Of a DNA stretch of 41,344 bases, positions 24,092 to 41,270 are shown piece by piece. How positions within the stretch are numbered: the first letter of the stretch is position 1; the number at the start of each line of letters is the position of its first letter. The notes beneath the pieces are model-generated. The model was not told the DNA's origin, made no database searches, and saw nothing but the letters and a program-made list of their open reading frames with translations. The translations under genes were made by a program, and so were the position numbers. Source of the DNA: Clostridiales bacterium. GTDB taxonomy: Bacteria > Bacillota > Clostridia > Peptostreptococcales > Anaerovoracaceae. The DNA lies in contig SVCV01000002.1 in the NCBI GenBank assembly GCA_015058185.1, positions 1-41,344 of the forward strand, given 5' to 3'.

Positions 24092-24775
24092 TTAAATTCC
24101 TCTGAGGAAAAGGCTTCGCAAGGCCCCCTGCGTTTTCCGGGAACCTCCGACGGAAGGTTCGAAGGGGATCTCCCCTTCTGTGGAAACGGAGCCCTCCGCC
24201 GGGGAAGACCTGTGGCTCTGAAACATGTGCTGTTCCTTTTCCTGCAGCAGCCGCAGAATGGATTCCAGCCCCATGTTTTGATCCAAAACCGCTTCCCGGA
24301 TGCCGGGACTGTATGCCTGCCATTGCGGATCAGGAAAGATACAGTCGATCTCCTGCAGGAAACTGCACAGATTTCTCCGAAAGGAGGTCTCCCGGGAACC
24401 CAGGGGAACGTAGAGGATCCGGGGAGAACCCTCCTTTGGATGCAGAAAAACATGATCCGTGTCCAGAAGAAAAAGCTCCGGTACCAATAAATGATCCCGG
24501 GCTTCCATCAAAACGGTCACGATCCCGGACAGGATCCGCAGCAAATCCACGCATAACAATTCCTTCTTTGTTAAACAAGCTTTCAATGAGAGCAGATCCC
24601 GACAATCGTAATAAAGAACCGCCTCGCCCGCCCCCTCTATAAGCCGGGCAGGCGGGATCCCCGGACATATATGGCCGCATAAAACAGCCCGTTCATAATA
24701 CAGCAGCTGACCGGAAGAAAGCTTTACGCCCACCTTCGGACAACCCATAGCTTCCGTATGAAAGATTCCATCCAT
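24092..24775 (-). CDS. DUF6382-like protein associated with Tad locus (no FHA domain visible)
   Basis: 227 aa; KVGVKLSSGQLLYYERAVLCG...LLSLKACLTKKELLCVDLLRILSGIVTVLMEARDHLLVPELFLLDTDHVFL...ILYVPLG pattern. Confidence 0.6.
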   Translation of the reverse strand: MDGIFHTEAMGCPKVGVKLSSGQLLYYERAVLCGHICPGIPPARLIEGAGEAVLYYDCRDLLSLKACLTKKELLCVDLLRILSGIVTVLMEARDHLLVPELFLLDTDHVFLHPKEGSPRILYVPLGSRETSFRRNLCSFLQEIDCIFPDPQWQAYSPGIREAVLDQNMGLESILRLLQEKEQHMFQSHRSSPAEGSVSTEGEIPFEPSVGGSRKTQGALRSLFLRGI

Positions 24776-24813
24776 ATGATCATCCTTTCTGTTGATTCTT
24801 TATCGGCCACGGC

Positions 24814-25620
24814 CTACGGTTCGGACCGCAGACCGCCGCCGCAGATCTGACAGGGACTATATCCTTGATCCACCGCCTCCCGGGCCGTCATTTCCGCAAC
24901 ATACCGATCCACCTGATAACAGGACCTGCGGTGATAAGTTTCTCCGGCCCGTGGAAAGCAATAAACCCGGTTTCCTACAAGAAGAGACTGGGGTTCACAG
25001 TGGCTGCAGGGAGCATATTGCCGCCGCAGAGAATCTGTCAGGATCCGCTCCTCCGCGGAAACCTCTATGATCACGCAGCCGGCTTCATGAAAGCGCTCAC
25101 CAGCCCGAGGAAACACATAAACCAACGAACTTCCCCGATCCTCTCGAAAAACAGCAAACCCTGCAGCGGGATTTCTTGCGGGAGCTCCGGTAAAGCCCCT
25201 CAGCAAAAGGTTCGATTCCAGAGTTGTATTTTTCGGGAAGTCCAAAGGCAGCGGGATCCGGCCCTTGCAAGTCACAGACAAACGGATCAGATCCTCCTGC
25301 CCATCTTCCATATATAGATATTGAAATTCTTTTATCCGCAGTCCTTCAACCCGATCCCCCTGTTCCGCCCGGATCCGGGAAAGTACACTTTCGGAAAAGG
25401 CGAACCTTGTCAGGAGGTCTTCTGCGGTCTCCGGCAATATCTCCGCGTCCGAAAGAAAGGCCCCTGCAGCCAATCGCTCACTTTCTTCAAGTAAGGAATG
25501 GAGGATCCCTTCTTCCGTGGCAATGAGACGGCTCAGACAGGCAAGAGCCAGCAAAGCCACCAGGAAAACCGGAAGAAATAGGGTGGTCTCCACCACAAGG
25601 GAGCCCTTTTTATTCGTCAT
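24814..25620 (-). CDS. TadE-like pseudopilin with C-terminal tandem Cys/His motif domains
   Basis: N-terminal MTNKKGSLVVETTLFLPVFLVALLALACL (prepilin-type); C-terminal VYVFPRAGERFHEAGC...YAPCSHC and VYCFPRAGETYHRRSC...GYSPCQIC; start placed at 25620. Confidence 0.75.
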   Translation of the reverse strand: MTNKKGSLVVETTLFLPVFLVALLALACLSRLIATEEGILHSLLEESERLAAGAFLSDAEILPETAEDLLTRFAFSESVLSRIRAEQGDRVEGLRIKEFQYLYMEDGQEDLIRLSVTCKGRIPLPLDFPKNTTLESNLLLRGFTGAPARNPAAGFAVFREDRGSSLVYVFPRAGERFHEAGCVIIEVSAEERILTDSLRRQYAPCSHCEPQSLLVGNRVYCFPRAGETYHRRSCYQVDRYVAEMTAREAVDQGYSPCQICGGGLRSEP

Positions 25621-27130
25621 AGCCCTGGGTGATGGCAAATGTACCAAACCGCTGTCCCCTCTTTCCGAAAAATCCGCTTCGCCGCACCACTTCGGCGGTA
25701 AACGCCACACTGCAATAACTGTCTTTCATAGCAAATCCGCTGTCGTGGGAAGCCTGCAGATTGATTTGGATCAGATCCATGATCCGAACCAATTTTGCCT
25801 CCCGGTCCGTCAAAAGAAGAAACAGAAACAGATAATTTTCATAGTGCAGTCCCCGGCCTTCGCCTTCCGCAGCCGATGCATTTTCCACCGTGCCCGAAAG
25901 GCTTAAAATCCAGCTTTCCCGGGTTTTAAACAAGGGGACCCGCTTCCCATCTTCCAGCCTCTCCATATCCTTTCCCGCCTCAGCGCCGGCCCATGCCAGA
26001 GCAATAACAAACTGTAAAATGGGAGCTGCAGGCCCAGGCAATATGGACGCTGCCAATGCCAGAGTTTCCTGATATTTGACCTCATCGGTGTAAATATGGA
26101 TCAGGTTCAGAGCCGTTCTGAGGGTGATCAGCGAAGCCTTTGTCCGCTGATAGTTGGCATCATCGCTCATCTGCCCGAAAAGGACATACTCCCCTTCGTT
26201 TTGGAAATAGTGTTTCCCCTCGCCTTCCCGGCTCAGATGACTGTCAAAGTACCTTACTATGTATGTAGAGAGAAGAAAGTTTTCTTTCAGGTCAGCGGCG
26301 GCATTCTGCGCCGGGCTGCCGGAAAGGGAGAAAGCCATGCCCTTATCCACCTCTAAAAGACGGCTGGGCAAAATGGACATATATTCCTCGTTGGCAAGGA
26401 CCCGGATCGTCTCATCTTCGAGGGATTCCTCCGGCCTAAAACCGGAGGGTTCCGGGAAAAGGGAGCCTTCCAGAAGCTCAGGATCTCCTGAGGAAAATCC
26501 GTTTATTTGGGATTGCAGCATATTCACTGCCCCAAGGGCATGTCCTTGGGCCTGCGCATAATTCTCCTCCGCATAAGCCAAGTCACCATCCTCCGAAGAG
26601 GAGGTCTCTTCCAGCAACCGTTTGGCTGCCTGAAAATCCTCTGCTAAACTGTCAGAAACCCCGATCAAATGATTGAGGGTGCTGATCTGCCCAAGCAACC
26701 CGGCAAGAGCTTCCCAGGACTGTGGATCCGTAAGAATGCGGCCTTCCATGTACTCCTGAATTTGAAAGGATACGGCTTCCGGTGAAAGAAGAGAACCTTC
26801 GGACAGGTTCCCTTTCACGGACTGCAGTTCCAGCCGCAGCAGATCCGCAGCCCCTGCACTTTTCGCAAATCCGGCCTCCCCATATTGACGGATCCGGGAC
26901 TCTAACAATTCCTCGTTCAAACTGACTCCGAAAAGACCGTATTCCTGAAACAGTGCCCGGTCGTATTCCGCCAAAACGGACTGGGCAGCCAGCCGCAGGA
27001 TCCCATCCGCGGTACTTCTGGCCGCATATCCGGCGGAAGCTTCCGCAAAGGTACCGGTGATCAGAACGAAACTGAGGAGGATCGCGGTCAGAAAGACGGA
27101 AGAAAAGCCTTTGCGGGAGTTAAGGTTCAT
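25610..27130 (-). CDS. TadG/DUF5702-like pilus-assembly associated protein
   Basis: 506 aa; N-terminal RKGFSSVFLTAILLSFVLITGTFAEASAGYAARSTADGILRLAAQSVLAEYDRALFQEYGLFG. Confidence 0.75.
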   Translation of the reverse strand: MNLNSRKGFSSVFLTAILLSFVLITGTFAEASAGYAARSTADGILRLAAQSVLAEYDRALFQEYGLFGVSLNEELLESRIRQYGEAGFAKSAGAADLLRLELQSVKGNLSEGSLLSPEAVSFQIQEYMEGRILTDPQSWEALAGLLGQISTLNHLIGVSDSLAEDFQAAKRLLEETSSSEDGDLAYAEENYAQAQGHALGAVNMLQSQINGFSSGDPELLEGSLFPEPSGFRPEESLEDETIRVLANEEYMSILPSRLLEVDKGMAFSLSGSPAQNAAADLKENFLLSTYIVRYFDSHLSREGEGKHYFQNEGEYVLFGQMSDDANYQRTKASLITLRTALNLIHIYTDEVKYQETLALAASILPGPAAPILQFVIALAWAGAEAGKDMERLEDGKRVPLFKTRESWILSLSGTVENASAAEGEGRGLHYENYLFLFLLLTDREAKLVRIMDLIQINLQASHDSGFAMKDSYCSVAFTAEVVRRSGFFGKRGQRFGTFAITQGYDE

Positions 27131-27429
27131 AGACTTCCCCCTCCGTCAGCTTCGCTGACAGCTCCCCCGCAAGCGGGGGAGAGACTGCGCAACAATTTCA
27201 CTTCATCAAAAGCTAAACTTGCTCCATTGGCTCGGCTTTCCACATGTTCCATAGCCTGGTCCCGAGCGTCTGTATAAAGCTGAATGTTCACCGAGAGAAG
27301 GCCGGTTACGGACAAGATCACCAAAGGCACGATCATGGCAGCCTCCACAAATGCGGTACCTTTTCGGTGCCGAAACCCCTTTAAAAATCGCTGTGCAGAA
27401 GATCGTAAAATGTTCCGTTTACAAAGCTG
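27127..27429 (-). CDS. TadE-like pseudopilin; start codon unresolved
   Basis: ...LKGFRHRKGTAFVEAAMIVPLVILSVTGLLSVNIQLYTDARDQAMEHVESRA; N-terminus of the listed ORF (to 27540) is out-of-frame flp sequence; 5' boundary given is approximate. Confidence 0.65.
   Translation of the reverse strand, partial: QLCKRNILRSSAQRFLKGFRHRKGTAFVEAAMIVPLVILSVTGLLSVNIQLYTDARDQAMEHVESRANGASLAFDEVKLLRSLSPACGGAVSEADGGGSL
27134..27190. repeat. Short palindromic repeat element (two adjacent hairpins) at the 3' end of the tadE-like gene
   Basis: ccctccgtcagcttcgctgacagctcccccgcaagcgggggagag: gtcagcttcgctgac + ctcccccgcaagcgggggag. Confidence 0.65.
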
Positions 27430-27524
27430 GTGATCTGTTCTTTGAAGATCAGTCCCAGCCCAATGGCGATGGCCACCAAAATGGCCACCTGCACCAACTC
27501 CATTCCTTTTTTGCTGTTTTTCAT
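27381..27524 (-). CDS. Flp-like type IVb prepilin (47 aa, not in ORF track)
   Basis: MKNSKKGMELVQVAILVAIAIGLGLIFKEQITSFVNGTFYDLLHSDF*; located between tadC and tadE-like. Confidence 0.8.
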   Translation of the reverse strand: MKNSKKGMELVQVAILVAIAIGLGLIFKEQITSFVNGTFYDLLHSDF

Positions 27525-27547
27525 ATTCCATTCCTTTCATTTTTCAC

Positions 27548-28327
27548 CTACATGGACATCATGGCGGGCATGATGGTAATAAAGATCAGCACCAGCAGCT
27601 GGATCATCAAAGGAAAAACCATCTTAGTCTCCGCCTGGCGGCTCCATTCCTGGATCCGGGTCTTCCGGCTGTTTAAAAGCAGCTCCCGTTCCGCTTCCAG
27701 TTTCTCTCGAAGAGAACTTCCCTTCTGCATACTGTGGCTGAGAATGGCGGAAAACCGCATGAGTTCCCGAATTCCAAGCCCTGCTGCAAAGTTTTGAAAC
27801 TCCCGAATAAAAGAAGCATTACTTTCCCTGACCCTGGACTGCAAACGATACAGCTCCCGGTACAAAGGTGCAGGCGGTTCATCCGAAAAATCCGGAGCTC
27901 CCTCTTCCGCAAGCCGTTGCATAGCAGAAGACAGCACCAAACCGCTGTTTAAAAGAAGCAGCAGCCGATCCACAAAATCCGGGTAATCCCGCAAAATCCA
28001 CTCCTTATCGCGCCGGATCTCCTTTTTCGGGCCGTCATACCGTTTCATATAAATGATCAGAAACCCCATGATCCACCCAAAAGCAAGCAGCCCCCAAGGA
28101 CCCTCGCTTTCCGAATAAGAGCCGAACAGACAGCACAGAAGAAACAGCCCGCCAAATCCGAAAAAAAGGCTGAGATAAGCATTTTTTGTACGTCTGCGGA
28201 ACCTATAGATCTTATGTTCCCAGGACGCAGCGCCGAAGGTTTTCGTATAGAGTTCCCGGAAAACTGCAGGCCGGCCCTGAAGCTGGTCCGAAACGATCCG
28301 AAAAAAACATTTCAAGCGAAAAATCAT
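27548..28327 (-). CDS. tadC: Type II secretion F-family protein TadC-like
   Basis: 259 aa; DYPDFVDRLLLLLNSGLVLSSAMQRLAEEG, LMRFSAILSHSMQKGSSLREKLEAE. Confidence 0.88.
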   Translation of the reverse strand: MIFRLKCFFRIVSDQLQGRPAVFRELYTKTFGAASWEHKIYRFRRRTKNAYLSLFFGFGGLFLLCCLFGSYSESEGPWGLLAFGWIMGFLIIYMKRYDGPKKEIRRDKEWILRDYPDFVDRLLLLLNSGLVLSSAMQRLAEEGAPDFSDEPPAPLYRELYRLQSRVRESNASFIREFQNFAAGLGIRELMRFSAILSHSMQKGSSLREKLEAERELLLNSRKTRIQEWSRQAETKMVFPLMIQLLVLIFITIMPAMMSM

Positions 28328-29127
28328 CCCTTGTCACCGGTGAGCCAAAGGCTCCAAAGCCCGGCAGCAGTAAGACCGATCAAGGCACCGGTCATACAGA
28401 TCCGCCCAACCACAGTCTCGTACATAACGGACAGATAATCAAAGGCCGTAAGCCGCAGAAACAAAAGAACCATCAGAGGCATCAGAGTCAGAAGTACCGA
28501 CTCCATCCGCTTTTGGGCCGTAAGGACCCGAAGCTCCCGGCGCAGGTCGATCCCCTCCACGAGAAGGTCCGCTGTCCGCCCAATGACCCAGGGCATATCC
28601 CCACCCATCCGGCGGCAAAGGGAGCAGATTCTGCTGAACCGGAGGATCTCCTCGATACGGCTTCGTTTCCCGAAACTGACCAAAACCTGATCCACTGGAA
28701 CCCGGCTCTCCCGAACCTCTAAGGTCATGCGCCGAAGCTCCATACAGATCAAAGCCTTTTCCGGGTAGATCAGCCGCAAATTCTCCCGAGCCTCCTCAAG
28801 AGCATGATCCAGCTGGCGCCCGGAAGCGGTGGAAGCCGAAAGAGAATACAGCAGATCCCGGAATTGCTCCCGAAGCTGCCACCGACGCTTCTCCGCCCGA
28901 TACCGGCAATAAAGCACTCTAATGGGAAGGGCACCTGCCGAAAAGCACAAAGCTGCCCACAGATGGTTATAAAACAGAAAAGCAGCGCCGGCGGACAATC
29001 CGCCCCCAATGGAAAAGATCAGGACGGATTCCAGCAGACCCGGTTCGTAAAGGTCGTAATTGATCCCTCTCTCCGGTACGTAATCCCCCGCAAATTCATC
29101 CCCAACAGAAACAGGTTTTCGAATCAT
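28324..29127 (-). CDS. tadB: Type II secretion F-family protein TadB-like
   Basis: 267 aa; QFRDLLYSLSASTASGRQLDHALEEARENL, SRICSLCRRMGGDMPWVI. Confidence 0.88.
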   Translation of the reverse strand: MIRKPVSVGDEFAGDYVPERGINYDLYEPGLLESVLIFSIGGGLSAGAAFLFYNHLWAALCFSAGALPIRVLYCRYRAEKRRWQLREQFRDLLYSLSASTASGRQLDHALEEARENLRLIYPEKALICMELRRMTLEVRESRVPVDQVLVSFGKRSRIEEILRFSRICSLCRRMGGDMPWVIGRTADLLVEGIDLRRELRVLTAQKRMESVLLTLMPLMVLLFLRLTAFDYLSVMYETVVGRICMTGALIGLTAAGLWSLWLTGDKG

Positions 29128-30343
29128 AGTCCACCCCCTGCATCACCAGCTTGTCCCGATTCCGAAGCTCGTTTCCCGTAAAAACCAGCCCATTGTTTTG
29201 TTGATACTTAAATATGGTATTAATTAAAAACTTTCCTTCGGATAAACCTTGAATTTCTGCGATTTCCAGAACTTTTCGGCTTCGGTCCGGCAACCGCCCA
29301 AGATGGACGATAACGTCGATGGCAGAGGCGATTTGCCCCCTTACAGCCTCGATCGGAAAGTCCGCAGCCGTAAGATACATGGCCTCCAAACGGGAAAGCA
29401 TCCCTTCGGGCGAATTGCCGTGACCCGTGGATAATGACCCGTCATGGCCCGTAGACATAGCCTGGACCATATCCATCACTTCCGCCCCCCGAACCTCTCC
29501 CACAATGATTCGATCCGGCCGCATCCGGAGGCTTGCACGGATCAGCTGACGCAGAGTGACCGCCCCTTTTCCCTGGGCATTTCCGCTCCGGGTCTCCAGC
29601 CGCACGATATTTTCCACGGAAGCGATCTGCAGCTCCGCGGACTCCTCAATGACGATCAGCCGCTCCTCTTTCGGAATGTAGTTCGAAAGCACATTGAGGA
29701 AGGTCGTCTTTCCGGAGCTTGTCCCGCCGGAAATGAAAATGTTATACCGAGCCTGCACCAGCATCTTTAAAAAAGCTGCAGCTTCCGGCGTTATGGTTTC
29801 CCATTCCAGCAGATCCTCCATATTGATCCGGGTCCTGGGAAACCGCCTTATATTTAAAATCGGTCCGTTTACCGCCACATTGGCATAAACCGCACTGAGC
29901 CGGGAACCGTCCTCCAAACGGGCATCCACAATAGGATTCAAATCGTTGATCTCCCGATGGACCCGGGCAGCCAGTCTTCGGATCACTTCCTCCAGATCCT
30001 CCCGGCTGTCAAATCGCAGATCCGTACGCAGGATCCTGCCATCCCGCTCGATAAAAACCGTGTCCGTGCCATTGACCATGATCTCATTGACCGCTTCATC
30101 CTCGGCTAAAGGCTGCAGAATATCCAACGATCTTCGGGTCACATGAAAAACGGTCCGCACAAGAGCCTCTTTTTGCCGATGGTCCAGCAAAACAGCCTCC
30201 TCACAGCCTAAAACCAGTTCCTCGATCAGCTGAAAAGCCTCCTCATCGGAGACCTCGGTTTCCAGCGAATTGATGGCCGACCGGGCGGACTGGATCAACT
30301 TCTTTTCCAGGGTTTTCTCCCACTCCTTCCAGGATCTCTGCAA
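29096..30343 (-). CDS. tadA: Tad pilus secretion ATPase CpaF/TadA
   Basis: 415 aa; [62 protein letters not shown]. Confidence 0.95.
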
Positions 30344-31376
30344 TCGTTCTCACTCCCATTCCAAACCCTCTGCTGGGGTCGATACACCAATAACCGTCCT
30401 GAATAAAAAAGCTGTCCGGATCATTTTCGATCGGGATCTCATCCGGTTCCAGAAGCTGTTCCGGAGTCCAAAAGTTCCGTACAGGAACCAGCTTGTCCGC
30501 CAGGGGCTCTCCCCCGCTTTGCAGCAGAAAATTTCGGATCCGATCCGTGCGGACCCGATCCGGCAAGGTACCATCTGTAAGGCAAAATAAGCTTCGGCAC
30601 AGATCCGCCAAAACCGGAAAATTTCCCGTCACAGACTCCCCAAAATCCAGCAGAACCCAATCATACCGACTTCGCCCCCAAATGTCTCCTAAAAGGACGG
30701 TAAGGTCCTCAAAAGCCAAACTGCGAAGCGCATTGGGTCCGGATCCAAAGGCAAAGGTCTCCACCCCGAAAACATTCCGCAGCAGAAAGGGCTCCAATGA
30801 CGCCGCCCATTCCCGGCGGTTGTCAGAAAACAGGTAATATAAATAATCACCGAAGGGCCGAACCTCCGGATCCCGAAGGAAAAACAGCTCCGTAAGGGGC
30901 CATTCCTCAAGGCTGAGGTAAAGTACCTTTCTTCCATAATAAAAGGCCAGCTCGTTAGCCACCGCTATGGCAGCCGAAGTCTTTCCCCTTCCGCCGAGAA
31001 AGCCTGCGGCAGCAGCCTTTGCGAGGTCCAGTCCGGGAGGCAGACCGACACCATGATCCCGGCACAGAAACTCCAGTTCCGCACCCAGCCGGTGCACTCC
31101 CATATACTTGTACAGAACACAGGGGCCCTCCCCCGGATCGGACCCTGAGGAAGGACCTATAGGGTCGTCGGAAAGATACACGATTTTTCCCGGAAAATCC
31201 TCCGGCAATTCCGGGAGAAGATCCGTGACCAGCAGATCCGCAGAATCCATCGAAGCTTCCGCAAAACCGGGAAACACACCTATGGAAAATCGGGGATATC
31301 CCTCTCCCAAGGCCATCCCCAAAGCTTGTCCATATGCTTCCTCTTTCGTGACCAGAACCAGCCGGATCTTTTCCAT
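30243..31376 (-). CDS. tadZ: CpaE/TadZ-like ParA-family ATPase
   Basis: GFLGGRGKTSAAIAVANELAFYYGRKVLYLSLE, YDWVLLDFGES; located upstream of tadA; start at MEKIRLVLV (31376). Confidence 0.85.
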   Translation of the reverse strand: MEKIRLVLVTKEEAYGQALGMALGEGYPRFSIGVFPGFAEASMDSADLLVTDLLPELPEDFPGKIVYLSDDPIGPSSGSDPGEGPCVLYKYMGVHRLGAELEFLCRDHGVGLPPGLDLAKAAAAGFLGGRGKTSAAIAVANELAFYYGRKVLYLSLEEWPLTELFFLRDPEVRPFGDYLYYLFSDNRREWAASLEPFLLRNVFGVETFAFGSGPNALRSLAFEDLTVLLGDIWGRSRYDWVLLDFGESVTGNFPVLADLCRSLFCLTDGTLPDRVRTDRIRNFLLQSGGEPLADKLVPVRNFWTPEQLLEPDEIPIENDPDSFFIQDGYWCIDPSRGFGMGVRTIAEILEGVGENPGKEVDPVRPVGHQFAGNRGLR

Positions 31377-31476
31377 TTTTATACTCCGCTTCAAATTTAT
31401 GTAACAATTTATTACAATACTACCATATTATTCCAGCACCATCAACCCGTCATCGTTCGACAAATTTCGACAAAGC

Positions 31477-31817: not shown

Positions 31818-32567
31818 ATGACGAAAACCAATATGGAGTTTACACGTGCCATGAAAATGGAGGAAGAACCGGAAGAAAAAGAACCGGAAAAGTGCAAAGA
31901 ACAAAATAATGAAAGTAAAGTTTCCCAAATCAGCCAAAACATCGACAATTTCGGCGTGATCAACAATGCCTTTGATTTCAGCAGTCCCATCCAATATCTG
32001 ACCATCATCGGCAGTATCGAAGGCCACACGGTTTTGCCGCCCCAGGATAAAACCACCAAATACGAACACATAATTCCCCAATTGGTGGCCGTAGAGGAGA
32101 ATCCGAATATAAAGGGTCTCCTGACCATTTTAAACACCGTAGGGGGCGATGTAGAGGCCGGATTGGCCATTGCAGAACTGATCTCTACCCTTTCCAAGCC
32201 TACCGTCTCCCTGATTTTAGGCGGGGGTCACAGTATCGGCATCCCCCTGGCCACAGCCAGTAAGTATTCCTTTGTGGCGGAAAGTGCCACCATGACCATG
32301 CATCCCATGCGCATGTCCGGCCTGGTCATCGGTGCCGAACAGACCTACGAATACTTCCGGCGGATGCAGGATCGGATCGTAGACTTTATCGTCCGGACCT
32401 CAAAAGCCAGCAAAAAGACCGTGGAAAAACTCATGAATGCCACCGACAACATGGCCAACGATGTGGGCACCATCCTCTACGGGAAAGAAGCCGTACAGAT
32501 CGGCCTTATCGACGAAGTCGGCGGACTGGATAAGGCGCTGGGGAAGCTGAAAGAGATGATTGGGTGA
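31818..32567 (+). CDS. ClpP-family protease TepA-like (translocation-enhancing protein)
   Basis: 249 aa; YLTIIGSIEGHTVLPPQDKTTKYEHIIPQLVAVEENPNIKGLLTILNTVGGDVEAGLAIAELI, GGGHSIGIPLATASKYSF; SD caggaggc. Confidence 0.92.
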   Translation: MTKTNMEFTRAMKMEEEPEEKEPEKCKEQNNESKVSQISQNIDNFGVINNAFDFSSPIQYLTIIGSIEGHTVLPPQDKTTKYEHIIPQLVAVEENPNIKGLLTILNTVGGDVEAGLAIAELISTLSKPTVSLILGGGHSIGIPLATASKYSFVAESATMTMHPMRMSGLVIGAEQTYEYFRRMQDRIVDFIVRTSKASKKTVEKLMNATDNMANDVGTILYGKEAVQIGLIDEVGGLDKALGKLKEMIG

Positions 32568-32600: not shown

Positions 32601-32635
32601 AAAAAAACAAGGGACGGATCTCTCCGTCCCTTGTA
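32601..32635. terminator. Bidirectional terminator between tepA-like gene and the SLH operon
   Basis: aaaaaaacaagggacggatctctccgtcccttgtaattt. Confidence 0.85.
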
Positions 32636-32647
32636 ATTTAGGTTCAG

Positions 32648-35600
32648 TTATTCAGCATCATTTGCTTCGCAGTAGCGCATGAGGATGGCTGCTACCTGAG
32701 CTCTGGTGGCTTCACCCTGAGGTGCCAGGGATCCGTCGCCCATGCCATTGATGAGGCTCTGTCCTACGGCCCAATTCAGTGCGGGGATGGCGTAGGAGCT
32801 GATGGCTGCTTCATCGGGATAGCCGATCAGGTTTTCTTCCAAAGTCAGAGATTCCAGACCCTTGTACTGTGCGTAGCGGAAAAGGATGGTTGCCAGCTGT
32901 TCGCGGGTAATGTCATCCTTGGCTCCGAATTCGCCGCTGGTGTAGCCGGTAACGATCTTGTTTTCGGCTGCCCATGCAACTGCGTCGGAGTACCATTCGC
33001 CGGCGGCTACGTCAGAGAAGCTGCTGTCGGATACTGCGGGGGAACCTTCCAGTCTCCAAAGGATGGTTACGATCATGCCTCTGGTGGTGGTGGCATTGGG
33101 GCTGAACTTGTCAGCTGCAGTACCGTTCATCATGCCCTTGTCGTATACATACTGTACAGCACTTGCGAACCAATCGGTGGCTGCTACGTCGGTGAAGATC
33201 TGATCTACGGGAGTAACTTCAGGTTCTTCAGGCTTTACGGGAGGCTTGGGTGCAGGAGCTGCGCCGCCACCGCCGCCCATGGATACGGTGTACAGAACAA
33301 CGGATCCGGCAAGATTTTCGTACTTGTCAGCATCGTCGGGAGTAAACAGCCACTTATAAGAAGTATTGGCCTTTACTACGGTGCTCAGAGGCAGAGGAGT
33401 CATTCCGTCTGCAGCTACCCACTTTACAGTACCCTGCATGTTGGTAACACCCATGTCGAGAGCCAGATTTGCATCTGCTAAAGTCTTGCCTGCTGCGGTG
33501 ATCTCGTCATAAGTAACGCCTACTTCGGGAGTTGCCTTTGCGATAGCCAGCAGGATGGTGCCGGAACCGGCCTGTGCTGCGGTTTCTGCGGTAGCAGGCT
33601 TGTTGTACTTAATGGTTACAGCATACTTACCGGGAACGGTAGGTGCGGTGCTGGAGGTAGTACCGGTGGCCAGGTTAGTGTAAGATTCTACCGTGTAGTT
33701 TTCTGCATCCTCTACATCTTCCATCAGCAGATCTTCAACAGTAGTACCGTCCAGATCTTCCAGACCCAGTTCGGTATCACCGACTCCGATGGAAACGATT
33801 TCTGCATCGGTAATATCCAGAACCAGAGATACCTTATCTACGGTGTAGTTTGCATTAGCGATAGTGAACTGAATGTCGCTGATCGTCTTAGTACCTACAG
33901 CTGCATCTGCGGGAGTAATGATCCGCAGAGCACCATCCACAACTTCTACGGTGATACCGTCGGGTGCAGTGTAAGTGATGTCGGTCACTTCTTCGGTCAT
34001 GCCGAATTCAGCGGGATCCACATCCAGCATAGCATCCTTGCCTACGGTCTTGCTCAAGCTGTACAGAGGCATTCTTACCTTGTTGATGGTGAAGCTGGTG
34101 AGAGAACCGTCTTCTGCTTCTGCTGCCAGAGCGTAGTTTTCGGTCCATGCTTCGTTCAGAGCTGCAGCCAGAGCGTAAGTGCCTGCATCTACGGGCTTGT
34201 CAGCTTCGCCGCCGTAAGTAACGTCGATCACGGGAGCTTCGCCTGCGGCTGCGCCGCCGATCACTGCGTATACATTGTAGTCTGCAGCGCCGTTGTAATC
34301 GTAGGAAGCGCCGGGAACGGCTGCCAGCTTCCAGGTCAGGGTTGCCTTGTTGATCTTGGCAGCTTCGGTGAGCTTGTAGTCCTTACCGTTGGTCAGAGTG
34401 TAATTCTTTGCGGCATCGCCCTTCAGAGTTACATTTACGGTAACATCTACGTTTGCGTCGTCAGCATTCTTATCGGGGAATACTGCGGTGGCTTCGAAAT
34501 CGGTATCCTTTACCAAGTCGCCGCTTACACCGGGGATGGTGATGGCGGTGATGGCAGCGGATGCGGTTCCGTCATAAGTCTTATCGGTTACGGTCACTGC
34601 GGAAATTGCAGTTTCCTTCTTGGTGATGGTTGCACGGATGTCAGCGGTCAGTCCGTCTGCCAGTGCATAGTTGGAATCTGCAGCCAGTGCATCGGGAGTG
34701 AAGATGACCTTAGTGGCATCGGTGTTTGCGCTGTCGAATACAGCATTACCGGTGAGAGTCAGTTCCGTGTCTTCGCCTGCCAGTGCGGATGCCTTAACAT
34801 CCATGGATACTGCACCCAGATCCTTGGTACCGTCGTAAACCTTGGTGATGGCTTCGCCGGTGTACTGCAGGTCTGCAGCGGTCAGAGTCTTGGGAGCTAC
34901 GGTTACAGTACCGGAGTAGACCACCTGTTCGGGATACAGGTCAGAACCGAACATCAGCTTCCAGGAGTGTTCACCCTTTGCGGGATACTTGTCATAGTCA
35001 TCGCTGCCGTCGATAACAAACCACATTCCGCCATTGATGGGATTGCCATCGGGATCGAATGCGTAGATATCATAATTGTCAGCAAGGATTTCATTCCAGC
35101 TGTCGCCGTATACAGGATTTTCCTTGATCTTAAGCATCAGCTCCAGAGTTGCGGGAACATAGCCCTGTCCGGGAATGTATACTTCGTAGGAAATGTTCTT
35201 AGCGGTTACAGTTACAACCAGGTTATAGTTATTGTAGTTGGTGCTCTTGATGGGCAGAGTTACGGTGGTAGCAGTATCTTCTGCCTTAGCATTTGCCTTG
35301 ATCACCAGCTTGCCATCTGCCAGAGCGGCGGAGGTTACGAAGCTGTTGTCAGCGATGGTTACATCGCCAACCAGAACTGCACCTGCGGGCAGAGTCAGAG
35401 TCACGGTCTTGCCCTCGCTTACGGTTCCGTCAACGGGAACGTTTACGCTAAGTTCCTTGGCACCGGTCCAGTCAGCCTTTGCGATGGACGCGGCGACGGT
35501 CAGGTTACCTACGTTTGCAAGCTTGTAGTTGCCTGCATCCGCACCGGTCAGACCGTTCAGTCTGATGGCTGCTGCATCGGTTCCTACATCGGTACCTGCG

Positions 35601-38600
35601 AAAGCAGTGAAGGTGTAAGTTGCGGTAACGTCGTCACCTGCCAGTGCATCGGTTGCCAGTGCACCGGTCAGAGCTGCATCGCCAATAGCGGTGCTGCCGT
35701 CATAGGTCTTGGCATACTTCAGGTCACCAGCAGTTACGGTCAGAGCCTTCTGGGTGATCCGTGCGGAAATGTCATAGGTCAGACCAGCTTCCAGTACATA
35801 GTTATCATCAGCTGCCAGTGCATTGGGAGTGAAGATGACCTTGTTAGCGGTGGCTACATCTGCGCTGTTGAATACGCCGGTACCTTCCAGAGTCTTGGTT
35901 CTGTCGCCAGCAACCAGACCGGAACGTACGGTAACGGTTACGTCACCAAGGTCAGTGGTGCCATCGTATTCTTTGGTAATGGTACCGCTGTAGTACAGGT
36001 TTGCAGCGGTCAAAGTCTTGGGAGCTACGGTTGCAGTGCCTTCCAGTACCACTTCATCGGTGTAGGAACCGTCGGTGGCGGTGAAGAGCAGCTGCCAATC
36101 ATGGGCGCCCTTGGTGGGATATGCATTTGCATCTACGCTGAGCTTGTAAGTACCGGCTACAGCACCGTCGGGACCTTCGGCGTAGAAGCGAGAGGTCTTC
36201 ATGCTTACGATCTGGCTCCATCTGTCGCCGTATACGGGCGCAGCCTTGATGGTCAGTGCCTTTTCTGCGGTTACAGCATCAGTGAAAGCAGCATCCATGA
36301 AGAAGTCGATATCCTTGGCGGTTACGGTTACCACCAGGTTATAGTTATTGTAATTGGTGCTCTTGATAGGCAGAGTTACGGTAGTAGCAGTATCTTCTGC
36401 CTTAGCGGTAGCCTTGATCACCAGCTTGCCGTCTGCCAGAGCAGCGGAGGTTACGAAGCTGTTGTCAGCGATAGTTACGTCGCCAGCCAGAGCTGCGCCT
36501 GCGGGCAGAGTCAGAGTGATGGTCTTGCCTGCGGTTCCGTCAACAGGAACGTTTACGGAAGCGGTAGTTGCGCCGGTCCAGTCAGCCTTTGCAATGGAGG
36601 CCAATACGGTCAAGGTGCCGGCATTGGTCAGTCTATAGTTACCAGCATCCGCACCGGTGAGGCTGTTCAGACGGATGGTAGCGGAAGTAGTACCTACATC
36701 GGTACCATCAAAAGCAACGAAGCTATAAACAGCGAAAACTTCGTCGCCGGGTAAAGCGTTAGTACCCAGGTTTCCGGTTGTAACAGCGTTGCCCTCCGCC
36801 TTGCTGCCATCATAGGTCTTGGCGTAGGTCAGGTCGTTTACAGTTACGGTCAGAGCCTTCTGGGTGATCCGGCCGCTCAGGTTCAAAGTAATGTCATCTG
36901 CCAGTACATAGTTGGTGTTGGCAGGATTTTCGTCATCAGCAGTGAATTTTACGGTCTGAACACCGGCATTCTTGCTGGAGAAAGTAACCGTTCCGGGAAC
37001 CTTAAAGGAAGCATCGTTGTTCTTCATAGAGGAAGAATAAACGGGTACGTATACGGTTTCACCATAAGCGGTATTACCGTCATATTCCTTTTCAACAGAT
37101 ACGCCACGGTAATCCAAATCGGAAGCCTTCAGTTCCCAGGGAACTACCATGAGATTATTTATAGCGAATACTTCGATATCGGTATACTTCTGTCCGTTGA
37201 TGGTGCCGTTGAACAGCAGAGCCACATCATGCTTGCCCGCGGAGGGATAAGCGGAAGCATTCATAGCCGCACCGTCAACTTCCCAAGTGTACTGAGCATC
37301 GGTGCAAGTGAAGTCGCCTACCTTTGCCACGATATTCTTATCGTTGCCGATAATGTCGCTCCACTTCATGCCATAGGTGGGTTCGCTTTCCAGCTTAATA
37401 CCATTGCCGGGAGCAACGGCTGCGCCTGCAAAGCTGAAGGCTACATCTACCATTTCTACATTGATGATACCCGAAACTTCAGCACCTAAGTAGTTTTCGG
37501 TACCAGTGAAATTATAGCTGATCTGTGCAGTATCGCCCTCGTTCAGCTTCTTCAGAGCTGCCTGGATGAGAATCTTACTGGTCTTTCCATCATAAGAGTA
37601 AGTAACAGCACCGGTTGCCAATTCATCGCCAACACCCTTGATCGCAACATCCTTAAAGGTGCCGATTCCAACCGCTACCTTCTGATTCTTATCGGTAATA
37701 TCCGTTACATCTTCGCAAGGATTGATCTTTGCAATGGTGGTAACGGTAGCAGTATTACCGGTTTCAAAGGTATACCATTCCTGGCCTCTTTCGGTCAGGG
37801 TGAAGATGGCATCCAGGTCATAGGTCCCTACATTCTTGCTGGGGAAGAGGTCGGGATCATAGAAGAAGAATATTTCCTCGCCTTCACCGAAGGGATAGAA
37901 GGTGTCGCCCTGCATGCCGACAGCCTTCAGATAGCCATTTGCAGCGATTCCGGTATGTCCATCATAATCCTTGTCTTCCACTTCGAAGAAAATGTTTTCC
38001 TCCGTAATGGTGTAAGGCTTTACCGTTACCTGAACAGTCTTAAAGCTCTTGGCATATTCATCGGTTTCGGATGCGGAAACCACGATGGTTGCAGTACCGG
38101 CCTTCCGGATGAGAATTCCGCCGAGGCCATCTACACCAACAACACTATTATCGCTGGACGCATACTCAAGAGTACCATTACCGATTTCGAGGGAGGCACC
38201 AACATTCAGGCCGGTGTCACCAAAAGTAAATTCGCGGGTATCATCAAAGACCACGATCTTCTGTGCATCTTTGTCAGCAGTCTTGGGGAAAGTTACATTA
38301 AAGGTCAGAGTAGAGCCATTTGCAGCAACCTGAACCTTGTTTGCCGCAACATCACCGAGAACAGCAACAGTTGTACCATTTGCAAAGATATAACCAGCTT
38401 TGGCGGTCAGGGTTACAGTTGCAGTGTAAACCGTGTTCTGTGCGAACTTATCACCTACAGCAGGAGACCAGGAAATGGTACCAGTGTACTGATTGGTTTC
38501 AGCAACAGCAGTATCAGGAGCTGCGTTCTTTACGGGAGCATCAATACCGGTAACATCGATGGTACCGGAGATTTCTTCAATTACAGCAACACGAGTAGAC

Positions 38601-39091
38601 TGGAGTTCACCGGTTACGGCAACACCTTCGCCACTAAAGGACATTGCATAGGAATTGCTTTCGGTGTCAATTTTAATTACAGCAGCACCAATGGAAGCAT
38701 CGTCCTTGACCCGGAAAGTTGCCTTAATGATATCAACAGAAACAGCTTCTGTGGTATCTGCCATAGCCATGGATCCTACGGAAATAAAACCGGCAGTAGA
38801 GTGATCCGTTGCCATCATCATTTCCATAGCAGCATTGGGAGCCGTGTAAACAGGATCCCCTACGAGTTCCAGTCGGGTGCTGTCATAGGTAATGTTACCA
38901 TCATAACCAGACAGTCCTGCGGAAGCCTCCATTCTCAGTGCCACTTCAAAGGTTTCCCCAGCTTTGTAGGTTACCTTTTCGGGCATGATCAGGTTCTGTG
39001 TGGCAGTTTCACTGTCAGCAAAAACAGCTGCAGGGAACAATGCGATCAGCATCGCTACCACGAGAACCCAGGCCAGTGTTCTTCTTTTCAT
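32648..39091 (-). CDS. 2147-aa surface protein: signal peptide, N-terminal cohesin-like domain, Ig/YDG-type repeats, three C-terminal SLH domains
   Basis: N-term LIMPEKVTYKAGETFEVALRMEASAGLSGYDGNITYDSTRLELVGDP (cohesin); repeated K(T/E/V)YDG(S/T) motifs; C-term DVAATDWFASAVQYVYDKGMMNG, DVAAGEWYSDAVAWAAENKIVTG, SSYAIPALNWAVGQSLINGMGDG (SLH). Confidence 0.92.
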   Translation of the reverse strand: MKRRTLAWVLVVAMLIALFPAAVFADSETATQNLIMPEKVTYKAGETFEVALRMEASAGLSGYDGNITYDSTRLELVGDPVYTAPNAAMEMMMATDHSTAGFISVGSMAMADTTEAVSVDIIKATFRVKDDASIGAAVIKIDTESNSYAMSFSGEGVAVTGELQSTRVAVIEEISGTIDVTGIDAPVKNAAPDTAVAETNQYTGTISWSPAVGDKFAQNTVYTATVTLTAKAGYIFANGTTVAVLGDVAANKVQVAANGSTLTFNVTFPKTADKDAQKIVVFDDTREFTFGDTGLNVGASLEIGNGTLEYASSDNSVVGVDGLGGILIRKAGTATIVVSASETDEYAKSFKTVQVTVKPYTITEENIFFEVEDKDYDGHTGIAANGYLKAVGMQGDTFYPFGEGEEIFFFYDPDLFPSKNVGTYDLDAIFTLTERGQEWYTFETGNTATVTTIAKINPCEDVTDITDKNQKVAVGIGTFKDVAIKGVGDELATGAVTYSYDGKTSKILIQAALKKLNEGDTAQISYNFTGTENYLGAEVSGIINVEMVDVAFSFAGAAVAPGNGIKLESEPTYGMKWSDIIGNDKNIVAKVGDFTCTDAQYTWEVDGAAMNASAYPSAGKHDVALLFNGTINGQKYTDIEVFAINNLMVVPWELKASDLDYRGVSVEKEYDGNTAYGETVYVPVYSSSMKNNDASFKVPGTVTFSSKNAGVQTVKFTADDENPANTNYVLADDITLNLSGRITQKALTVTVNDLTYAKTYDGSKAEGNAVTTGNLGTNALPGDEVFAVYSFVAFDGTDVGTTSATIRLNSLTGADAGNYRLTNAGTLTVLASIAKADWTGATTASVNVPVDGTAGKTITLTLPAGAALAGDVTIADNSFVTSAALADGKLVIKATAKAEDTATTVTLPIKSTNYNNYNLVVTVTAKDIDFFMDAAFTDAVTAEKALTIKAAPVYGDRWSQIVSMKTSRFYAEGPDGAVAGTYKLSVDANAYPTKGAHDWQLLFTATDGSYTDEVVLEGTATVAPKTLTAANLYYSGTITKEYDGTTDLGDVTVTVRSGLVAGDRTKTLEGTGVFNSADVATANKVIFTPNALAADDNYVLEAGLTYDISARITQKALTVTAGDLKYAKTYDGSTAIGDAALTGALATDALAGDDVTATYTFTAFAGTDVGTDAAAIRLNGLTGADAGNYKLANVGNLTVAASIAKADWTGAKELSVNVPVDGTVSEGKTVTLTLPAGAVLVGDVTIADNSFVTSAALADGKLVIKANAKAEDTATTVTLPIKSTNYNNYNLVVTVTAKNISYEVYIPGQGYVPATLELMLKIKENPVYGDSWNEILADNYDIYAFDPDGNPINGGMWFVIDGSDDYDKYPAKGEHSWKLMFGSDLYPEQVVYSGTVTVAPKTLTAADLQYTGEAITKVYDGTKDLGAVSMDVKASALAGEDTELTLTGNAVFDSANTDATKVIFTPDALAADSNYALADGLTADIRATITKKETAISAVTVTDKTYDGTASAAITAITIPGVSGDLVKDTDFEATAVFPDKNADDANVDVTVNVTLKGDAAKNYTLTNGKDYKLTEAAKINKATLTWKLAAVPGASYDYNGAADYNVYAVIGGAAAGEAPVIDVTYGGEADKPVDAGTYALAAALNEAWTENYALAAEAEDGSLTSFTINKVRMPLYSLSKTVGKDAMLDVDPAEFGMTEEVTDITYTAPDGITVEVVDGALRIITPADAAVGTKTISDIQFTIANANYTVDKVSLVLDITDAEIVSIGVGDTELGLEDLDGTTVEDLLMEDVEDAENYTVESYTNLATGTTSSTAPTVPGKYAVTIKYNKPATAETAAQAGSGTILLAIAKATPEVGVTYDEITAAGKTLADANLALDMGVTNMQGTVKWVAADGMTPLPLSTVVKANTSYKWLFTPDDADKYENLAGSVVLYTVSMGGGGGAAPAPKPPVKPEEPEVTPVDQIFTDVAATDWFASAVQYVYDKGMMNGTAADKFSPNATTTRGMIVTILWRLEGSPAVSDSSFSDVAAGEWYSDAVAWAAENKIVTGYTSGEFGAKDDITREQLATILFRYAQYKGLESLTLEENLIGYPDEAAISSYAIPALNWAVGQSLINGMGDGSLAPQGEATRAQVAAILMRYCEANDAE
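35202..37450. repeat. Long tandem intragenic repeats, period about 1.1 kb, within the SLH gene
   Basis: Segments starting at 35202 and 36318 are near-identical (ggttatagttattgtaRttggtgctcttgatRggcagagttacggtRgtagcagtatcttctgcc...); encoded DNSFVTSAALADGKLVIKA(N/T)AKAEDTATTVTLPIKSTNYNNYNLVVTVTAK appears twice. Confidence 0.9.
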
Positions 39092-39132
39092 GCTTTTAAC
39101 CTCCTGAAAAATATCTATCGTTTTGCTTCGTA

Positions 39133-40062
39133 TTACTTATCAACGGGGAAAGTAGACCCGCTCTTGTAACGAAGAATGTTTACAGCATCAGTGGAGTTTG
39201 CCTTGTTGTCACCATTAATGTCAGCCAACAGCTTCTGATAACCAGTAAACTTTGCACCATTTCTCAAAGTCTGTACCGCATCGGTGGAGTTGATCTTACC
39301 ATCCTTGCTGACATCTCCGTAGTTGTACAAGGCAACCGCGTCCAGCTCAACCGCAGAAGTACTTACCGTAACGGATTCTTCATAAGGTGCGAAGTGAGGC
39401 TTTTTAACGGCGAGGGTATATTTTGCCGCAGATACGGTGTTGAAAGCAAAGGTTTCAGCCGTTTTCTTACTGGTGGTATTATCCACAATATTACCGCCGG
39501 CGACCGTCAAAACCGCGGAGTAAGAAGCGGAGGCTCCGCCCTCTTTGGTCAGGGTAACGGTGGTATCACCGGTTCTCCATGCAGCAGTGTTGGAAGAAGC
39601 TGCAACGGAACCGCTTACGGTTACGCCGGGAACGCCCTGAAGGTAACCCAGATAAATAGGACTGGCGATTCCGGTTCCGGTAATGAAAACCTTGTTGTAG
39701 AACTCACCGGTCGCGGGAGAATACTCTCTGGGAATAAAACCTTCCGTGGATCCAACGCCGCTGAAGCTTACGCCGGAATTATCGGATGCGGTCTGGTCGA
39801 TATACATGATATCATCCGCGGTAAAGGAAGGCATATCTTCATCATTGTCCGTATCCTTTACGATCAGAAGAAGGTACTGTCCTTCCGGAACAAAGGCTAC
39901 CCCCTTCCCTTGCAGGAATTCCGCGGCAACATTGACCGAATAGGTATAATTTCCGTTGCTTTCTGTATAGTCGATCTGACTGCCTGCACCGAATGCCGTC
40001 ATGGGAACCACAACCATGCACAGTGCCAGAAGAACAACTAAAAGTCTTTTTACTCTTTTCAA
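39133..40062 (-). CDS. Secreted dockerin type I protein (309 aa)
   Basis: Signal peptide MKRVKRLLVVLLALCMVVVPMTAFGA; C-terminal GDVSKDGKINSTDAVQTLRN...ADINGDNKANSTDAVNILRY, two dockerin Ca-loop repeats. Confidence 0.9.
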   Translation of the reverse strand: MKRVKRLLVVLLALCMVVVPMTAFGAGSQIDYTESNGNYTYSVNVAAEFLQGKGVAFVPEGQYLLLIVKDTDNDEDMPSFTADDIMYIDQTASDNSGVSFSGVGSTEGFIPREYSPATGEFYNKVFITGTGIASPIYLGYLQGVPGVTVSGSVAASSNTAAWRTGDTTVTLTKEGGASASYSAVLTVAGGNIVDNTTSKKTAETFAFNTVSAAKYTLAVKKPHFAPYEESVTVSTSAVELDAVALYNYGDVSKDGKINSTDAVQTLRNGAKFTGYQKLLADINGDNKANSTDAVNILRYKSGSTFPVDK

Positions 40063-40083
40063 AATTCTTCTCCTCCTTCCGAT

Positions 40084-41157
40084 TTATACGAAGTCTCGCA
40101 GCAAGGGAGACATCACTAAGAGCCAATCGTTCATAACGATTTGTTCCGTTTCCCCATTCAGATCCCAGGGGGCAGCAATGGGGGCGATGATGACCAACCG
40201 ATTGGTGTTTTCCCACTCTACATCGCAAGCCAACGCTTCGGCGATGCAGCGGATGGGAACGAAGGTCCGCCGTTCCACGATCTCCGCGGGAGCATCCTGG
40301 GTGTATTTCACGCCGTTTACCAGATAGTGATCCGCACCGATGGGAACCTGGATCACCTTATCGCCCTTTTTGACCGTGGCGGTTCGGGTATCGTTGTCCC
40401 AAAAGACGTCGGCACCCAGGCTTTCGGAAATGTACCGAAGAGGAACCATGGTCCGGCGATTCTTGATATAGGGAACCACATTCTTGTTGTCCCGATCGAT
40501 CCAGGTAAGACCGCCCTCTTTCACCGCAGCGTAATTACCGATTTGAAGACCTACTGTACCGGCATTCCGTTGTTCCTTGGTGAGAACCGCAGGTTCGGGG
40601 GTTGGCTCTATGGGATCCGGTGCAGGAGCAGGCGCCGCAGTGCCATTGGCAACAGTGATCTTTCCTTCCTGAACCTTTCCGGTTATCGCAACGCCCTCCA
40701 AATTAAAGGCCATTGCGTATTTTGCATTATCCGTGTCGATCTTAATGATGGCATCGCCTTTGGGAGCACCGGACTTCACTCGAAAAGTAACCTTGATAAT
40801 GTCCGTTGTCGCAGCGGCGTCCGTATCCTTCATAGCCATTGAGCCGGTGGAAATAAATCCGGCAGAAGAATCGGAAACCATCATCGCTTCCATAGCAGCA
40901 TTCGGAGCTTTAAAAACAGGCTCCCCGACTACCTCGAGCCGGCTGCTGTCATAGGTAATATTACCGTCGTAAGCCGAAAGACCTGCAGAAGACGTCATCC
41001 GAAGGGTAACATCAAAGGTCTCTCCGGTCTTGTATTCCGTCTTTGACGGAAGCACCAGTTCCTGTGATGCGGTCTCCCCTGCCCCAAAGGCCGCAGCCGG
41101 GAACAGCGAGATCAGCATCATGGTGACCAAGAGCAATGCGACAGCTCTTTTCTTCAT
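40084..41157 (-). CDS. Secreted cohesin-domain protein with C-terminal copper amine oxidase N-terminal ('stalk') domain
   Basis: Signal peptide MKKRAVALLLVTMMLISLFPAAAFGA; LVLPSKTEYKTGETFDVTLRMTSSAGLSAYDGNITYDSSRLEVVGEP; YIKNRRTMVPLRYISESLGADVFWDNDTRTATVKKGDKVIQVPIG...VERRTFVPIRCIAEALACDVEWE. Confidence 0.9.
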   Translation of the reverse strand: MKKRAVALLLVTMMLISLFPAAAFGAGETASQELVLPSKTEYKTGETFDVTLRMTSSAGLSAYDGNITYDSSRLEVVGEPVFKAPNAAMEAMMVSDSSAGFISTGSMAMKDTDAAATTDIIKVTFRVKSGAPKGDAIIKIDTDNAKYAMAFNLEGVAITGKVQEGKITVANGTAAPAPAPDPIEPTPEPAVLTKEQRNAGTVGLQIGNYAAVKEGGLTWIDRDNKNVVPYIKNRRTMVPLRYISESLGADVFWDNDTRTATVKKGDKVIQVPIGADHYLVNGVKYTQDAPAEIVERRTFVPIRCIAEALACDVEWENTNRLVIIAPIAAPWDLNGETEQIVMNDWLLVMSPLLRDFV

Positions 41158-41240: not shown

Positions 41241-41270
41241 ATTATACACCCGAAAGCATATGAAAGTCAA
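41241..41270 (-). promoter_or_regulatory. Sigma-A-type promoter for the cohesin-dockerin operon
   Basis: Minus strand TTGACT - 18 nt - TATAAT about 85 nt upstream of ATG 41157. Confidence 0.65.

Follow-up and report, generated by a model that had tools for sequence, protein, structure and literature searches.

What are one dockerin and two cohesins for, if no others are found in a genome and the operon that encodes them has no catalytic domain? This question is raised by a stretch of 41,344 nucleotides (contig SVCV01000002.1; the whole stretch is called the window hereafter) from a Clostridiales bacterium of the family Anaerovoracaceae, whose genome is a metagenome-assembled genome (MAG) of 1.56 Mb, 84% complete. 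Three minus-strand genes with intergenic gaps of 21 and 41 bp (genes 1 to 3, Table 1) lie there just as a preliminary description of this DNA had placed them. We consider it fairly likely that the operon is a dedicated non-enzymatic surface display, in which either of two wall-anchored cohesins, those of genes 1 and 3, receives a client protein encoded by gene 2. Cohesin-dockerin modules, familiar chiefly from cellulosomes, would then probably have a further use, that of fixing a single kind of non-enzyme protein on the cell surface.

Is the operon simply a piece of a cellulosome? Searches of the whole MAG with PF00404 and PF00963 found exactly one dockerin and two cohesins, all within this operon. 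The cohesins are distributed one per protein, a scaffoldin with several cohesins is absent, and the sole dockerin sits on a protein without a catalytic domain; dockerin-bearing glycoside hydrolases were not found in the 84% of the genome that the MAG covers. As had been stated before, Pfam finds neither a glycoside hydrolase nor a carbohydrate-binding module in the three operon proteins, the latter module having been looked for in these proteins and not genome-wide. From these counts, and with a caveat for the 16% of the genome that is missing, the operon is no fragment of a cellulosome, and the idea of an ordinary fragment of that kind is rejected. The preliminary description had proposed a non-cellulosomal cohesin-dockerin surface module in a single operon and a genome-wide count of dockerins as a check on it; the count of one, the absence of any further cohesin, and a gene order conserved in other Clostridia (see below) all agree with that proposal.

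How would the two cohesins be held on the cell? Gene 1 carries a cohesin and a CuAO-like domain within a single secreted protein and, by its domain make-up, is a nonSLH-anchoring scaffoldin of the OlpC/ScaG-like type. Gene 3 has a cohesin and three SLH domains on the same protein, separated by a stalk of ~1800 residues with six YDG repeats (Pfam 1.4e-24), the anchor and repeats having been recognized already in the earlier reading; this is the architecture of an SLH-anchoring scaffoldin. The profile searches that had been suggested were run, and Pfam calls Cohesin in both proteins as well as Dockerin_1, SLH and YDG. The cohesin of gene 3 is missed by Pfam on the full-length protein and is detected when the N-terminus is searched separately, and the profile scores (44.7 bits for gene 1 and 37.5 bits for gene 3) pass the curated cut-off of 24.1. 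The cohesins of genes 1 and 3 share 60% identity, against at most 24% with any other cohesin compared in the family, and their description as paralogs is confirmed. A profile of the cohesin sequences matches solved cohesins in the PDB at 9e-12, while a phmmer search of the PDB with one cohesin sequence gave no matches. Foldseek, run with a single-sequence model of gene 1 that is of low confidence, returned the solved cohesins 6kgf, 6kge and 6kgc as the best PDB matches (probability 1.00, E 0.02).

As for the anchors, the CuAO-N domain of gene 1 had been described as part of a stalk. The domain itself is confirmed, but what has been published on OlpC points to an anchor on the cell wall rather than a stalk: the CuAO domain of OlpC binds the secondary cell wall polymer (Pinheiro et al., cited in PMC4582956), and the domain is used as an anchor criterion elsewhere (PMC11557425). 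Because the CuAO-like domain is so described in OlpC, gene 1 is probably anchored too, and by analogy both cohesin proteins probably are. Orthologs of gene 1 (P0009, L122, L119 and L120) were aligned, and the C-terminal 173 residues, comprising this domain and a conserved tail, are 48% identical to the ortholog in Clostridiales UBA10908, a member of the same family. For gene 3, about 14 SLH proteins are encoded elsewhere in the MAG, and thus SLH anchoring is in use in this host.

What would these cohesins hold? Gene 2 contains two domains beyond its dockerin, neither of which was described before. The first, YIDQ, occupies residues ~55-145 and has the motif DxIxYIDQ...SF...P; Pfam scans of gene 2 and of YIDQ family members found no model that covers it. 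A window-free profile, made from dockerin proteins of other genera and one SLH protein, finds gene 2 at 1e-7, with the next unrelated open reading frame at E=1, and a profile from out-of-family clients only finds it at 5.3e-18 over residues 26-300, the best of 200 shuffles reaching 0.06. The second domain is transthyretin-like (TTL), weak in gene 2 and better seen in an ortholog (Table 1). Judging from these profile matches, gene 2 belongs to a conserved family composed of YIDQ, usually TTL, and then a dockerin. Scans with Pfam and NCBIfam found no catalytic domain in gene 2 (NCBIfam gave sub-threshold noise, which was disregarded), and for this reason the role of the client is taken to be structural or adhesive. 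Proteins of the YIDQ/TTL type also exist without a dockerin (435-522 residues; L156 6658-14912, L158 6983-14162, L159 6317-12082). Each of them is followed by a protein of 290-358 residues and then by a giant protein, so that this type of client also has a surface operon without a dockerin.

The dockerin of gene 2 has two complete repeats, as had been claimed. It scores 34.1 bits against a cut-off of 22.9, the calcium positions are kept in both loops (DVSKDGKINSTD and DINGDNKANSTD), and the nearest solved relatives are type I dockerins of C. thermocellum (1daq/2mte). Positions 10-11 of each repeat are known recognition residues (PMC8063739, PMC3413522), and repeats that are symmetric there have been read as allowing a dockerin to sit on one cohesin in either of two ways (PMC8063739). 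Among 28 dockerins, the two repeats agree at these positions in 22, against a mean of 4.8 with shuffled partners, and none of 20,000 shuffles reached 22. At the same time the residues vary between species: ST/ST in the window, and AS/AS, VY/VY, VF/VF, PK/PK and others elsewhere. Such a pattern is as expected of functional dual-orientation dockerins.

Table 1. Features of the operon (positions count from the first letter of the window)
Feature	Position	Strand	Size	Match or remark
Promoter-like site upstream of the operon, TTGACT-18-TATAAT	41241..41270	minus		11/12 consensus positions
Gene 1: signal peptide, cohesin, CuAO-N1, conserved C-terminal tail ending RDF	40084..41157	minus	357 aa	
Gene 1 cohesin domain	40732..41058	minus		PF00963, 1.7e-12 to 2e-11
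Gene 1 CuAO-N1 domain and conserved tail, probable cell-wall-binding module	40087..40482	minus		PF07833 (Cu_amine_oxidN1), 2e-34
Gene 2: signal peptide, YIDQ domain, transthyretin-like domain, dockerin	39133..40062	minus	309 aa	
YIDQ domain, conserved beta-domain	39631..39894	minus		Held-out profile, E=1e-7; no Pfam model matches
Transthyretin-like domain (TTL; CarboxypepD_reg/PEGA-like) between YIDQ and dockerin	39328..39630	minus		Weak in gene 2; PF13620 5.3e-9 in ortholog L119
Gene 2 dockerin, two calcium-loop repeats	39169..39321	minus		PF00404 (Dockerin_1), 1.9e-8 to 3.2e-8; Ser-Thr at positions 10-11 of both repeats
Gene 3: signal peptide, cohesin, YDG/MBG-like repeats, three SLH (SLH-anchoring scaffoldin)	32648..39091	minus	2147 aa	
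Gene 3 cohesin domain	38663..38980	minus		PF00963, 1.6e-9 to 3.3e-9 (the latter with the N-terminus searched alone)
Three SLH domains of gene 3	33077-33196, 32891-33022, 32690-32821 (span 32690..33196)	minus		Pfam SLH x3, 8.9e-29
Intrinsic terminator at the operon end	32601..32634	minus		12-pair stem 32634-32607, then T run

Is this arrangement kept in other bacteria? The analysis covered 298 genomes of the window's own family, the named genomes and a sample of 391 genomes across the class. Within the family YIDQ is found in six of the 298 genomes, from four genera, and it either stands next to a gene for a cohesin-SLH protein (L068, L069) or an SLH protein (L109), or is part of an SLH protein itself (P0006, L108); L161 has YIDQ on an SLH protein as well. 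Fusion of YIDQ to SLH proteins (P0006, L108, L161) suggests that wall attachment is what is needed. A scan of contigs with P0003 alone gave no matches. When the alignment of cohesin-CuAO proteins was used to scan the named genomes, four relatives were found (L119, L120, L121 and L122), each from a genome with one or two dockerins, and in all four a YIDQ-TTL-dockerin gene lies directly downstream of the cohesin-CuAO gene. L121, which is the same locus as L110 and belongs to UBA10908, continues with the start of a third secreted protein, and L122 has a third secreted protein of 1971 residues that ends in three SLH domains, namely the order of the window. The N-termini of the third proteins of UBA10908 and L122 were not supported as cohesins by hhalign, that of UBA10908 being only weakly similar to cohesin and partly signal peptide. 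Therefore, as to the conservation of the three-gene order that the preliminary description had wished to see examined, the cohesin-CuAO gene and the client are kept in relatives, and the giant SLH gene is kept in L122, where its N-terminal cohesin is not recognizable. It is to be noted that in L110 a dockerin lies in an 83-residue frame (2654-2794, minus strand) directly after a giant protein ending at 2876. The arrangement suggests a frameshift, and the cohesin-CuAO gene of UBA10908 is probably preceded by one for a giant TTL-dockerin protein, as in L119 and L143.

Beyond the family, the YIDQ-TTL profile matches 33 of the 391 genomes of the class-wide sample, some of these matches being to the generic transthyretin-like part only. 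In families f29, f28 and f55 the client is accompanied by cohesin-like-CuAO genes; the f28 neighbour is a cohesin by Pfam at 1.2e-5 and is preceded by a giant SLH gene. Two cohesin-SLH genes, both called by Pfam, follow the client in f18 (L157), and in f61 the neighbour is weakly cohesin-like (hhalign 90-92%). No cohesin was recognized beside the client in f21, nor was one found when the neighbour in L160 was tested. Altogether, 16 of 21 loci, drawn from at least five families of Clostridia, have a cohesin or cohesin-like gene beside the client. The 21 loci (the window, L110, L122, L119, L120, L143-L147, L149-L155, L157, L160, L068 and L069) were picked for a client match and not at random, several are close relatives, and the four of f61 (L146, L147, L149, L153) are borderline. 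Most of the 16 neighbours are cohesin-CuAO proteins, with the giant SLH gene adjoining in a few, as in the window; the alternative mounts are one cohesin-SLH protein in L068 and L069 and two of them in L157.

How might the three proteins work together? Genes 1 and 3 would put two cohesins on the wall by different anchors, a CuAO-type anchor on the secondary wall polymer and an SLH anchor, respectively. The only client would be gene 2, a secreted YIDQ protein with a transthyretin-like beta-sandwich, whose calcium-folded dockerin would plug into either cohesin. One dockerin would occupy one cohesin at a time, and because both repeats are alike, it could do so in either of two orientations. The client would thereby decorate a short mount (CuAO) and a long one (YDG-SLH). 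What the sequences show directly are the domains, the operon signals, the lack of other dockerins and cohesins in the MAG and the conservation of the client next to a cohesin or cohesin-like gene; we infer the binding of the dockerin to the cohesins of genes 1 and 3, its stoichiometry, the wall anchoring by CuAO and the role of the client.

Several observations weigh against this surface display. The CuAO domain precedes the cohesin in OlpC/ScaG and follows it in gene 1. No clear cohesin neighbour is seen in five of the 21 client loci, and the cohesin-like domains of L119, L120, L144, the L150 group and f61 are too diverged for Pfam and were identified by hhalign (68-92%) and custom profiles, which give no direct match to the cohesins of the window. 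With a MAG that is 84% complete, other dockerins may have been missed. Symmetry between the dockerin repeats extends to loop positions 7-8 but not to positions 2 and 4, and because of positions 7-8 the symmetry may partly be due to a recent repeat duplication. A single-sequence AlphaFold model of gene 2 (pLDDT 34) was set aside.

What else could the operon be? In the preliminary description the dockerin protein was a bridge between the SLH-anchored scaffold and a second, merely secreted cohesin protein, that is, a cross-link giving a ternary complex. Two cohesins and one dockerin do share one operon, and the symmetric dockerin has two similar faces. However, the client has just one dockerin module with no sign that it occupies two cohesins at once, and a symmetric dockerin, according to the literature, takes a single cohesin in one orientation or the other (PMC8063739). 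The two cohesin proteins are probably both anchored and, as CuAO is described as a wall anchor (PMC4582956), a bridge is unneeded; several orthologous loci have a single cohesin gene (e.g., L069, at a contig edge, L119 and L120). We therefore do not retain the bridge, which appears unlikely.

One may also suppose that no docking takes place at all, the cohesin-type domains being Ig-like spacers, the dockerin a calcium-binding cap, and the genes co-expressed parts of an S-layer. Gene 3 is indeed a large, repeat-rich SLH protein, the cohesin-like neighbours are highly diverged in some families, and YIDQ is also carried by SLH proteins without a dockerin. Against this, the calcium residues and the symmetric recognition positions are kept and yet vary between species, and different families have dockerins and cohesin-type domains encoded side by side, so that we regard the idea as quite improbable. 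Another thought is that the operon neighbours are not mutual partners: the cohesins would be sockets for dockerin proteins of other bacteria of the community, and the client would plug into foreign scaffolds. Scavenging has been suggested for P. guangzhouensis (PMC11557425), and both repeats of the window carry the Ser-Thr code of C. thermocellum. Still, a cognate pair is favoured both by the species-specific recognition residues and by the 16 of the 21 loci in which client and cohesin genes adjoin, which leaves foreign partners with very little room. Least probable to us is a cellulosome remnant that lost its enzymes and kept three scaffold-type genes, although the module types and dockerin recognition residues resemble type I of C. 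thermocellum (PMC3413522) and dockerins are numerous in certain genomes of the family (e.g., G081, G145, G156). The client is of a conserved, non-enzymatic kind that has neighbours of its own in several families of Clostridia, and recurrence in the same order in genomes with one or two dockerins is not expected of a remnant, which is thus disfavoured.

How far is such a surface display known? The scaffold architectures of genes 1 and 3 are those of cellulosomal species (PMC3413522, PMC11557425), with the order of CuAO and cohesin reversed. Like OlpC/ScaG of C. thermocellum, A. cellulolyticus and C. clariflavum, gene 1 has one type I cohesin and one CuAO-like (CSBM) domain (PMC4582956, PMC3413522), but in OlpC/ScaG the cohesin comes after CuAO and receives cellulosomal enzymes, whereas in gene 1 it comes first and the only client of the operon is non-enzymatic. 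SdbA and ScaF share with gene 3 one cohesin and SLH on one protein (PMC3413522); they differ from it in that gene 3 has the long YDG stalk and its MAG has no primary scaffoldin and no dockerin enzymes. Non-cellulosomal cohesins and dockerins have been reported since at least 2009, with an unclear role (Peer et al., cited in PMC9012536). In ANME archaea, L. sulfuriphilus and others (PMC11557425), as in the host of the window, such modules occur without a cellulosome; the present case differs in that one particular family of clients and the adjoining cohesin gene are kept together as an operon in different families of Clostridia. The cohesin/dockerin glycoside hydrolases of C. perfringens and the mucinolysome of Limousia (PMC12997984) are likewise small or non-cellulose assemblies of gut bacteria; those assemblies join glycoside hydrolases, unlike the operon of the window. 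No account of a conserved non-enzymatic client operon was found in searches of an open-access library, which leaves most subscription papers outside. Thus, the modules and architectures are already known, and the conserved non-enzymatic operon appears to be undescribed.

The closed set, with one dockerin and two cohesins in the genome and a conserved client and order, makes the role of non-cellulosomal docking testable with three proteins. YIDQ is a client domain that Pfam lacks, and the cognate pairs, having diverged in nature, could find use as orthogonal connectors of proteins. More tentatively, and with more doubt than belief on our side, one may imagine an old, widespread surface system of Clostridia, consisting of a wall-anchored cohesin, a YIDQ-TTL-dockerin client and an optional giant SLH protein, in which cohesin-dockerin is a non-covalent anchor replacing direct SLH fusion. 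If this were true, the anchoring scaffoldins of cellulosomes could be a derived use.

The signals of the operon agree with what had been proposed. The promoter-like site is found at its claimed place and is the best-scoring of three in the region, the stem and T run of the terminator are found at the operon end, and each of the three starts is preceded by a good Shine-Dalgarno sequence, the start of gene 2 being TTG. The operon adjoins a Tad/Flp-pilus-like secretion cluster (window 24092-31394, minus strand) with a T2SSE ATPase, two T2SSF proteins, DUF5702 and DUF6382. A ClpP-family gene (31818-32567) between the cluster and the operon runs on the plus strand towards the operon and is thus outside it.

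Other cohesin-dockerin sets were met in relatives. In G145 and G274, both of the same family, 21 and 12 dockerin matches were obtained with no cohesin match listed, and the partners of these dockerins may be unrecognized cohesins. A locus of G237 (L073 1211-16337, contig C28) encodes in one operon two proteins with one cohesin each, a large protein that no Pfam model matches, an AAA ATPase of the MoxR type, a protein of 378 residues, a transglutaminase membrane protein of the TgpA type and a giant protein with PQQ-like repeats, a cadherin-like part and a dockerin. Similar operons are found in L072 and, cut by the contig end, in L071, and cohesin-dockerin is linked there to a MoxR-transglutaminase system. 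A second conserved pair, in L083, L084, L085 and L087 (G188, G151, G109 and G162), consists of a dockerin protein of 640-690 residues, which in L084 has SH3_3 and cadherin-like domains, and then a cohesin-like protein of ~420-435 residues. In L084, L085 and L087 it sits between thymidine kinase-like and MgtC-like genes (named by sequence appearance only), and L086 has a similar pair in other surroundings; the client of these loci differs from YIDQ, and the principle is the same. Finally, a small non-cellulosomal set in G010 (L070 14123-15577, minus strand, and neighbours; contig C43) comprises an SLH protein, a phosphoesterase-looking secreted dockerin protein, another dockerin protein, and a protein of 2228 residues with two cohesins and three SLH domains.

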